Shown here piece after piece: positions 10,870 through 14,017 of a stretch of DNA of 64,000 nt (position 1 is its first letter; each line of letters starts with the position of its first letter). The DNA comes from Lysobacterales bacterium (GTDB taxonomy: Bacteria; Pseudomonadota; Gammaproteobacteria; Xanthomonadales; SZUA-5): assembly GCA_022844165.1 (NCBI GenBank), contig JALHMH010000014.1:1-64000 (forward strand), in the 5' to 3' direction. The notes beneath the pieces were generated by a model, which was not told where the DNA came from, did no database searches, and was given only the letters and a program-made list of their open reading frames with translations. The position numbers were made by a program, and so were the translations under genes.

Positions 10870-10946
10870 TGGTCGGGGCGGAGAGATTCGAACTCTCGAC
10901 CCCCACAACCCCATTGTGGTGCGCTACCAGGCTGCGCTACGCCCCG
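10870..10946 (-). tRNA. tRNA-Pro (anticodon GGG)
   Basis: On the minus strand the sequence folds as a complete cloverleaf: acceptor CGGGGCG/CGCCCCG, D arm GCGC...GCGC, anticodon stem CCACA/TGTGG around loop ATGGGGT (anticodon GGG), T arm GAGAG-TTCGAAT-CTCTC, discriminator A and an encoded CCA. It reads proline codons CCC and CCU. Confidence 0.95.
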
Positions 10947-11087
10947 ACCGAAGACTGCGGAGGCTACACGAGAACAGGCGCCGCGCGAAAGGAGCAGAAG
11001 ACATCCCATAACGCATCGAAATGTCACGTTAAGGCGTACTATAGCGGCGCGAGCATGATCGTCATGCTCAAATTCGGGAGTCCGGCT

Positions 11088-12521
11088 ATGCGCTACTGTG
11101 TGCGTCTATTGGCTTTGTTTCTTGCGTCGAGTGCCTTCGCTGCCGATCATCGTGATGCTCCTTCCGCGACGGCGGACCCAGCGGCGGACATCAACGATGT
11201 CTACACGTTTGTGAACCCAAACAATCCGGCAGAGGTCATCATCGCGGTCACGGTCGTGCCGTTTGCAAACTACAACTCGCGGTTTTCCGATGCCGTCGAC
11301 TACCAGATCAACATCGATAACGGCGCGGTGAATACGCGAATTTCGTGCCGTTTCACCAATCAATCGAACAATGTTGCCTGTTCCGGAGGTGGGCTGTCGG
11401 CCAGTGGCGGCATAGAGCGCACGCTTCAGGGAACGGGCATGCGGCTTTGGGCGGGTTTGCGCGACGATCCTTTTTTCTTCGATCTGAATGCATTCAACGC
11501 AACGCGCGCCGCACTCGCACCGCGCTTTACAAACCCCGGCAGCAATTTCTTTAGCGGCAACACACTATCGATCGTTCTTGCAGTGGAGCGAGCTCGCCTC
11601 AACAATAATGGCGCGAACAACGTTTGGCGGATTTGGTCGGCAACGAATCGGCTGGGTGAGGTTGGAATCAGTCCTGGCTTTACAGGGCTTTGGTATGACG
11701 CCGCTCGTCCAGGATTTGGGGCACATATCGAAGTGCTCGCTCCAGCAACGGCTGGTGGACCGGATCAGGTGGTATTCGCGTGGTACGTGTACAACGCGAC
11801 GGGACAGCAGCGATGGATCACAGGTGTGGGTTCGATCAACGGTGCAACAGCGACCATCCCGAATGCGTTTTACACGACAGGCGGTCTGTTTCCGCCGGCG
11901 TTTAATCCAGCCCAGGTCACGAACCGACCCTTCGGCAACGTCAGTTTCCGCTTCACTGGTTGTAATGCAGGTGTTCTGACGTATTCCACGACGGACCCGG
12001 ACTTTGGCAGCATCGGGACGGGCGAAATTGCAATCACACGGCTGACGTCGATCAAAGATCAGCCCTGTACGTTTTTCAGCGCTGGGCAGATCGATCGGAA
12101 CGGTCGCCCAGCGATCAATCCGGCATTGATCAACGTGTTGCCGAATACCGGTACCGCTTTGAAGGAAGCCTACAATCGCAATGGCGACCAGAGCACTTGG
12201 GCCGCGCAGTTCACTTCAGAGATTCAGAGCAACCTGGCGGCATTGGACACGCTTGATGGCATCGTTGGCAATGCGGTCCTGCCGCCAGCACCGTTGGCGG
12301 GTGTGTTGGTCGACGATCGCCTGATCATCGATACCTCTCGACCGACCTGTGATGCCTATCTGGCGATTGAGCTCGGCGCTGCTGGCTGTGGCGGACGCAC
12401 TCTTGCGCGCGACGTGATCGACGATTCGTTCGGCGCGTTGATCGGTCCTGGGGTGAGTGATAACGTAGCCAACGACAGCGTGTTTATCACCGACTTCCCG
12501 TTTCTCGGCAGGCCCCTATAG
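11088..12521 (+). CDS. Secreted DUF4331 protein with an inserted GLWYD-type domain
   Basis: A 477-residue exported protein. The start at 11088 has GGGAG seven bases upstream and opens a signal peptide (MRYCVRLLALFLASSAFA) ending just before ADHRDAPS. DHRDAP, DINDVYTFVNP, GLRDDPFFFDL, IWSATNR and QIDRNGRPAINP are signatures of the DUF4331 family, whose function is unknown. Between IWSATNR and QIDRNGRP, about residues 197-331 (bases 11676-12078), sits extra sequence with GLWYDAARPGFGAHIE, FAWYVYNATGQQRWITG and VSFRFTGCNAGVLTY. It resembles a small beta-rich domain seen in secreted proteins of this bacterial group. The following TPR lipoprotein gene is probably a partner. Confidence 0.8.
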   Translation: MRYCVRLLALFLASSAFAADHRDAPSATADPAADINDVYTFVNPNNPAEVIIAVTVVPFANYNSRFSDAVDYQINIDNGAVNTRISCRFTNQSNNVACSGGGLSASGGIERTLQGTGMRLWAGLRDDPFFFDLNAFNATRAALAPRFTNPGSNFFSGNTLSIVLAVERARLNNNGANNVWRIWSATNRLGEVGISPGFTGLWYDAARPGFGAHIEVLAPATAGGPDQVVFAWYVYNATGQQRWITGVGSINGATATIPNAFYTTGGLFPPAFNPAQVTNRPFGNVSFRFTGCNAGVLTYSTTDPDFGSIGTGEIAITRLTSIKDQPCTFFSAGQIDRNGRPAINPALINVLPNTGTALKEAYNRNGDQSTWAAQFTSEIQSNLAALDTLDGIVGNAVLPPAPLAGVLVDDRLIIDTSRPTCDAYLAIELGAAGCGGRTLARDVIDDSFGALIGPGVSDNVANDSVFITDFPFLGRPL

Positions 12522-12805: not shown

Positions 12806-14017
12806 ATGATGAGACTGACCTGGCTGTTAACGACGTTGATCTTCGTTGCATGCGCCGCGCCGCGCGGTCAAGCGCCGAGCGTGGGCTCAGTGATGATGGC
12901 CAACTATCCGATCGCGAAGAGCATCCGACCGACCACCTCCGAGCAAATTTTTCTAGGCAACCTCAACGCAAACATCGAGGAGCTTGAACAACGCCTCGAA
13001 TCGGGGGATGCCGCAACTGCGGCATTGGCGTCCTCGTTGTTGTTGCGTTTTCGTATCGTTGGTCGTTTGGACGATGGCGAACGTGCGCTTGCCCTGGTGA
13101 TGTCGTCGGACACTTCGCCGTTGGCTGTGCTGACCAGAGCAGCCGCGCAATTGACGTTTCACGATTTCGCAGGCGCTGATGCGTCGATTGCTGAGCTCGG
13201 CGCGTTTCCGGAGTTTGCTGTCCAGGCCGGCGCGCTAAAGCGAGATCTACAGATGGCGCGTGGCGACTATGCAGCGCTAGAAGCGGATTTCAGGCAATCG
13301 AATCAACCGTCGAACGATTTCTTCGAAATGGCGCACCGCGCGGATATCCGGCTCATGCTAGGCGATCTGGATGGTGCCACCGCATGGTATCGCGCAGCAC
13401 AGGATCTGTATGGTGATGTGAGCCCTTTTCCCTTGGCCTGGTTGTATACCCAGCAAGGGATCGCCATTCTGCGCTACGGCGATTTCGCATCGGCCAGATG
13501 GTTCTTCGCCGCCGCAGTGGAGCGGCTGCCGAGTTACTACCTGGCTATCGAGCATCTTGCCGAGTGTGAGATGGAGCTGGGCGACCTGGACGGCGCGCGC
13601 AAGCGCTACCTGGGAGTGATTGAACAGACCGATAACCCGGAGTTCTTTGCGGCGCTCGCCGATCTTGAGACGCGTGCCGGAAACCGTGCGGCTGCAGCTC
13701 GCGCCTTAGAGCAGGCCCGGATTGGATATGACGACTTGCTCGCTCGGCACCGGCTTGCCTATGCGCAACACGCGGCCGAATTTTTCCTTGAAGACGGACA
13801 AGCTGCCCGTGGCCTGACGCTTGCACGCGAGAACATCGTGATGCGCAACGACATCGGGAGTTGGATCTTGCTGGCTTCGGCCGCGGATGCAAATGGTGAT
13901 CGAACCTTGGCGTGCGAAGCGACCCGGATCGCGGTCGCAACTGGTCTGAATCCACCAGAGATGGCAGATCTCGTGGAGCTGCGGAGGATCTGTGCGGATT
14001 TGGCATCTTCTGATTGA
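12806..14017 (+). CDS. TPR-repeat lipoprotein
   Basis: A 403-residue protein beginning MMRLTWLLTTLIFVACAAP. The cysteine after FVA looks like a lipobox, suggesting an outer- or inner-membrane lipoprotein facing the periplasm. The rest is alpha-helical with tetratricopeptide-like repeats, for example around WLYTQQGIAILRYGDFASA, AIEHLAECEMELGDLDGA and FFAALADLETRAGNRAAA. TPR arrays usually bind partner proteins. Its place directly after a DUF4331 gene suggests that the two work together, but the process is unknown. Two consecutive ATGs (12806, 12809) are possible starts, with a weak AGGG upstream. Confidence 0.8.
   Translation: MMRLTWLLTTLIFVACAAPRGQAPSVGSVMMANYPIAKSIRPTTSEQIFLGNLNANIEELEQRLESGDAATAALASSLLLRFRIVGRLDDGERALALVMSSDTSPLAVLTRAAAQLTFHDFAGADASIAELGAFPEFAVQAGALKRDLQMARGDYAALEADFRQSNQPSNDFFEMAHRADIRLMLGDLDGATAWYRAAQDLYGDVSPFPLAWLYTQQGIAILRYGDFASARWFFAAAVERLPSYYLAIEHLAECEMELGDLDGARKRYLGVIEQTDNPEFFAALADLETRAGNRAAAARALEQARIGYDDLLARHRLAYAQHAAEFFLEDGQAARGLTLARENIVMRNDIGSWILLASAADANGDRTLACEATRIAVATGLNPPEMADLVELRRICADLASSD

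Follow-up and report, generated by a model that had tools for sequence, protein, structure and literature searches.

How does a protein of a single Pfam family come to carry in its middle a folded domain that most of its relatives lack, and what might such a domain do there? The question is raised by a gene at 11088-12521 on the forward strand of the window, by which we mean the whole stretch of 64,000 nucleotides that was analysed. The ORF is in frame and open throughout, and its product passes the family cut-off of Pfam DUF4331 (PF14224, presumably the same family as IPR025566), with 90.1 bits against a cut-off of 27, spread over three stretches. The additional domain, a predicted barrel, lies outside these stretches, and positions 84-158 of the PF14224 model are also without a match in the protein. 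An in-frame ATG at 11055 is an alternative start, giving 488 residues. Just upstream, a tRNA-Pro (GGG) gene at 10870-10946 on the reverse strand overlaps the long N-terminal extension of the mechanically called ORF, and the start of the DUF4331 gene is therefore likely either 11055 or 11088. A preliminary description of this DNA had reported an extra segment of about 135 residues (11676-12078) between two DUF4331 motifs. Between the end of IWSATNR (residue 188) and the start of QIDRNGRP (residue 334) we indeed count 145 residues, 129 of which make up the barrel domain at 11682-12068. The features are:

11088..12521, forward: DUF4331 gene with inserted barrel domain, 477 residues (PF14224, E 2.3e-25)
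11088..11141, forward: putative signal peptide ending in AFA before ADHRDAP (read by eye, cleavage presumed)
11142..11651, forward: DUF4331 N module, beta-rich (alignment, profile boundaries, model)
11652..11681, forward: linker of 10 residues between N module and barrel
11682..12068, forward: predicted calycin-like eight-stranded barrel domain, 129 residues (homology searches, model, structure comparison)
11691..11693, forward: Trp of G-x-W, strand 1 (W in 88 of 105 copies, aromatic in 104)
11961..11963, forward: first Cys of a possible disulfide (both Cys in 79 of 105 copies)
12039..12041, forward: Arg of strand 8, the last one (R or K here in 96 of 105 copies)
12066..12068, forward: second Cys of the possible disulfide (Cys counts over the same 105 copies)
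12069..12086, forward: linker of 6 residues between barrel and C module
12087..12518, forward: DUF4331 C module, predicted as largely helical with low confidence (encoded by its own ORF in 57 of 80 related loci)
12806..14017, forward: TPR protein gene adjoining the DUF4331 gene (Pfam TPR_19)

Two DUF4331 modules and the site of the barrel

A single scan of genomes from bacteria and archaea gave 375 related loci, of which the 80 most like the host protein were kept. In 57 of them each module has its own ORF, the two lying next to each other, in nine both modules are fused without the barrel, and in 12 the N module, barrel and C module share one ORF; the remaining two could not be scored, L041 being another protein and L089 showing only the N module. 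Had the segment belonged to the family core, as the preliminary description allowed, most DUF4331 proteins should carry it, whereas 66 of the 80 loci lack it in their DUF4331 ORFs, as do both full-length DUF4331 paralogues in the same genome. The titles of the 12 barrel-bearing loci name Lysobacterales, its families or genera, or wider groups. A search with the C module through 299 genomes of the order gave 24 matches, 15 with the barrel (the gene of G007 probably lying in two contig pieces) and nine without.

Where the modules are split, the N-module ORF stops within a few residues of the site at which the linker to the barrel starts, and the C module is preceded in the following ORF by some 40 to 80 residues in most loci and by more in a few. 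Several of these C-module ORFs open, on reading, with lipoprotein-like leaders. The Pfam model extends over both halves: in a Flavobacterium pair, the match of the N gene to PF14224 ends at model position 236, and that of the C gene runs from 249 to 420. Furthermore, the alignment with insertion-lacking relatives that the preliminary description proposed shows two close, fused relatives, L037 and L038, with linkers of 14 and 10 residues at the site where the barrel stands here. The barrel is at the junction of two separable modules, as judged from gene splits and alignment, and not, as first supposed, in a loop of the host fold. We rely on these rather than on structure because the AlphaFold2 model of the full-length protein is poor (pLDDT 64.8); its outline is consistent with the junction, showing a beta-rich N part, the barrel at residues 198-318 and a helical C part. 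Structures matched across both modules, antibody chains for the most part and a single CBM74, reached a Z of about 6 from this poor model and were set aside. The single DUF4331 family of Pfam consists of two separable modules, and may deserve splitting. Loci with split genes include Bacteroidota, Gemmatimonadota and Myxococcota.

A predicted barrel family detected mainly in one bacterial order

With the barrel segment alone as query, a search of its own genome returned 24 matches at E<=1, or 23 besides itself; 18 of the 24 have E<1e-3, and the best other gene reaches 5.3e-23 at 48% identity, well above what chance would give. In the survey across genomes, 34 barrel matches were counted in the same genome at E<=1e-3 and 26 to 70 in four other members of its family, and the barrel is found at E<=1e-5 in 60 of 81 genomes drawn from the order. 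The 21 genomes that lack it are 11 of the 12 of family f2, nine of the 12 of f11 and one of f9. Draws reaching outside the order, which scored the best 16 to 19 candidates per genome and may thus miss distant relatives, yielded the barrel in 2 of 276 genomes across the class (the own genome being included in the draw), in 1 of 232 in a further draw (the own genome itself), and in 5 of 249 across the phylum, these five being the own genome, another genome of the order and three genomes from a single other family, whose forms are distant (E 7e-7 to 8e-9). The barrel family was detected almost only in one bacterial order.

Distant forms occur in another family of the class (f101; L215, L216, L217 and L219), mostly in N-terminal position; by eye they lack the conserved Cys, and they match about the first 95 of 121 profile positions. 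The window's own barrel copy had no match among 72,556 plasmid records. Among 50,697 phage records, one carries a barrel (PP438435.1, Dolichospermum phage Dfl-JY45; L221:3926-4819), in a stretch of 8.4 kb with 66% GC in which only hypothetical proteins are annotated, and we suspect that this record possibly contains bacterial DNA.

The proteins that carry the barrel were compared in 90 ORFs, distinct by their first domain sequence, 19 of which are DUF4331 proteins (L027 being counted among these). In the other 71, the barrel is C-terminal in 47 (followed by 0-11 residues), close to the N end in 19, internal in three and running off the locus in two, fractions that serve as a guide only, since the sample holds mainly best-scoring matches and positions were labelled by ORF and not by the true start codon. 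The 19 N-terminal cases include three distant f101 forms and one partial match (L180); of the internal ones, L017 has a second, weaker copy behind the first, and the start codons of L167 and L217 may lie later. Two copies, often in tandem, are present in 31 of the 71 ORFs. Ten hosts from the own genome were scanned with Pfam, and five of them have a family (plastocyanin-like, glucose/sorbosone dehydrogenase, cyclophilin, FG-GAP and DUF4397) and five have none. The preliminary description was right that the segment recurs at the ends of other secreted proteins, at the C end in 47 of 71 and near the N end in 19, with export judged from leader sequences by eye.

So what kind of domain is this? 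Pfam and NCBIfam, compared with 70 barrel copies, give no family, only weak scattered matches at E<=1, of which CBM_56 is the most repeated (4 of 70 copies, best E 0.024) and DUF4854 has the lowest E (0.003, in 2 of 70). An AlphaFold2 model of the barrel built from these 70 sequences (pLDDT 94.8, pTM 0.86) has eight strands, with a helical content by DSSP of short turns only. Foldseek with this model found nothing at E<1e-3, neither in its general search nor against viral models, with designed barrels, lipocalins and streptavidin as its top matches (E 0.01-0.06). By VIA-align, in which models lacking a clear match typically reach a Z of 7 to 8 and a Z near 9 exceeds this by little, the barrel is similar to a designed barrel (Z 10.1, rmsd 2.6, 97 aligned), to monomeric streptavidin (Z 9.7, rmsd 3.1, 103 aligned) and to part of quinohemoprotein amine dehydrogenase (Z 9.2, rmsd 3.1, 98 residues).

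According to PMC2954199, calycins are marked by a Trp of the first strand that stacks on a Lys or Arg of the last. Such a pair is present here as an aromatic residue with R or K in 95 of 105 copies and as Trp with R or K in 79, and the conserved Trp and Arg fall in predicted strands 1 and 8. These 105 copies are the near-complete ones with E under 1e-12, the shorter, weaker and distant f101 forms being left out. Both Cys are present in 79 of them, neither in 10 and one only in 16, which suggests a disulfide. The barrel is thus predicted to be an eight-stranded antiparallel closed barrel of the calycin or avidin-like kind, a separate domain that should fold independently outside the DUF4331 core, in agreement with the foreign beta-rich domain first proposed.

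With the calycins (avidins and streptavidin, PF01382, and lipocalins), the barrel shares eight predicted strands, the G-x-W of the first strand and the Arg of the last. Its sequence, in contrast, does not lead to them: searches of solved-structure sequences reached a best E of 0.48 and 0.17 with single sequences and 0.62 with the domain profile, with no calycin among the weak matches, while the host profile had no match. Avidin is likewise absent from the 16 families matched by any of the 70 copies at E<=1 and from the profile search of PDB sequences. A further difference from the calycins is that this barrel is amplified as a module on many proteins. By fold the domain is near a known kind, the calycins, and as a sequence family it is not found in the copies of Pfam and NCBIfam that were searched.

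Two other barrels may be compared. The barrel domain of Cap15 (7n34) resembles ours with Z 9.2 and an rmsd of 2.2 over 87 residues at 20% identity; Cap15 is a cyclic-dinucleotide receptor by its PDB title, whereas nothing hints at nucleotide signalling for this barrel. The DUF1842 barrel (8t1m, Q63NT7) matches the full-length host model with Z 9.5 and an rmsd of 3.8 over 104 aligned residues, at 15% identity. As described in PMC10994174, this eight-stranded barrel is linked to a helical domain, and of the two it is the helical DUF1843 part, and not the barrel, that recurs in paralogues. In the open-access library searched, no paper was found for DUF4331, PF14224 or IPR025566, whereas other DUF names used as a control did bring up papers, and a broader search gave, by title or abstract opening among the matches listed, no account of the barrel domain. 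Its use as an amplified, order-specific module is not found in the open-access literature searched.

Probable history and role of the barrel in DUF4331

We consider it reasonably probable that the barrel belongs to an order-specific, calycin-like family, that it joined DUF4331 early and was inherited vertically, and that it serves as a generic accessory module for binding or anchoring and, here, as a spacer of fixed length. The joining would have taken place early in the order, probably in one event, followed by vertical inheritance with perhaps a loss in a few lineages.

The spacing of the barrel within its host is nearly constant. Of 18 distinct proteins, 17 have an N-side linker of 10 residues (the exception, L193, has 24), and all have a C-side linker of six. 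Pairwise identities of domain and host are correlated (Mantel r 0.62, with 0 of 2000 permutations as high), and the barrel is the fastest-changing part, with a mean pairwise identity of 36% against 52% for the N module and 62% for the C module. In the domain tree, 15 of the 19 DUF4331 barrels form a supported clade (97/95), the two remaining pairs lying apart without support, and a constraint placing all 19 in one clade is better by 14.4 log units (AU p 0.678), which fits one origin in DUF4331 without proving it. Near-constant spacing, correlated divergence and a domain tree that one origin fits make the barrel look old and vertically inherited in DUF4331, and not recently mobile. The preliminary description had called it a mobile domain; this holds for the domain family, and within DUF4331 it does not. 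Composition neither shows nor excludes a recent transfer: the GC of the insert (0.566) is between those of the N module (0.562) and the C module (0.590), and its third-position GC is somewhat lower, at 0.583 compared to 0.645 and 0.681.

The host tree places the barrel-less close relatives L037 and L038 within the clade of barrel-bearing proteins, a position that would imply loss of the barrel in their lineage. The alternative topology is not rejected, as a single clade of all 18 barrel-bearing hosts is worse by 34.6 log units (AU p 0.063) and a clade of the 16 closer ones by 19.8 (p 0.207).

The chief rival view of its origin is that no insertion took place: the barrel would have been terminal on one of two adjacent DUF4331 genes, either C-terminal on the N-module gene or N-terminal on the C-module gene, and a later fusion of the genes would have made it their joint. 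This is well conceivable, if short of probable. The modules are neighbouring ORFs split precisely at the barrel site in the 57 loci given above, and the barrel is terminal in 66 of the 71 ORFs of other hosts. Moreover, other DUF4331 proteins of the order that are fused but carry no barrel group in a clade of their own, to which a split form is sister (100/98). However, no gene among the loci examined joins the barrel to an N or C module that stands alone, support for the deep branches of the host tree is low (78/20 or less), and the two close relatives that are fused without a barrel require a loss. Somewhat less likely still is a wider combination in which the order-restricted barrels are ligand-binding, form a general-purpose accessory module of the exported proteome, and were also the joint at which two DUF4331 genes fused.

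On our preferred reading, early joining followed by vertical inheritance, what would the barrel contribute? Its predicted fold and its promiscuity suggest a binding or anchoring role. After export it would fold on its own, possibly closed by the disulfide, and confer a generic extracytoplasmic property on exported proteins, most likely either the binding of small or surface ligands at the barrel mouth or anchoring. Such a generic module would explain why the barrel is used on unrelated exported proteins. In DUF4331 it may additionally hold the two modules a set distance apart.

The chief rival view of its function, in which a ligand-free barrel is tolerated at the module boundary as a neutral passenger or simple spacer, appears rather unlikely. 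It agrees with the barrel being the part that changes fastest, and with L037 and L038 managing with short linkers in its place. Conversely, the Trp, Gly, Arg and Cys positions are kept in most of the 105 copies, the linker lengths scarcely drift, and the amplification of the domain on proteins of unrelated kinds speaks for a use.

In type IX secretion, the C-terminal domains are beta domains confined to a lineage and found on numerous exported proteins, and the barrel could by analogy be a sorting or secretion signal, being mostly found at the extreme C end of varied proteins. We regard this as improbable, as the barrel, unlike those domains, also occurs close to the N end (19 of 71), as tandem copies and, in DUF4331, internally, where a C-terminal signal could not act without cleavage. 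Finally, the reading of the segment as part of the DUF4331 core is ruled out by its absence from 66 of 80 related loci and from both paralogues of the own genome, and we found no point in its favour.

With up to 70 matches per genome and no Pfam-A or NCBIfam entry found, the barrel leaves the architecture of many exported proteins hidden. Naming it would let annotators separate enzyme from accessory parts in the exported proteins of this order, and its ligand would inform on many host proteins at once. For DUF4331, a Pfam family that comprises two modules and often two genes provides a clear test of how modules are joined.

Predicted mature N-terminus and neighbouring genes

At the putative cleavage site, A, S or G followed by X-X-H is present in 96 of 97 distinct DUF4331 N modules (here at 11142-11150), the exception being L193. 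The predicted mature N-termini read A-D-H in 80, S-D-H in 10 and S-S-H in six. An NH2-X-X-His start has the form of the copper- and nickel-binding ATCUN motif, and the predicted termini offer a lead towards a possible metal-binding role for DUF4331.

The TPR gene downstream of the DUF4331 gene (12806-14017) has counterparts in L025-L030, L032-L035, L037-L040 and L042, including Myxococcota loci with split genes, and TPR genes also follow DUF4331 in a Flavobacterium and a Holophagae locus. DUF4331 and TPR look like one conserved unit. The Holophagae pair adjoins a sigma-70 gene and a ChrR-like cupin gene (L101:5293-6593), which perhaps regulate it.
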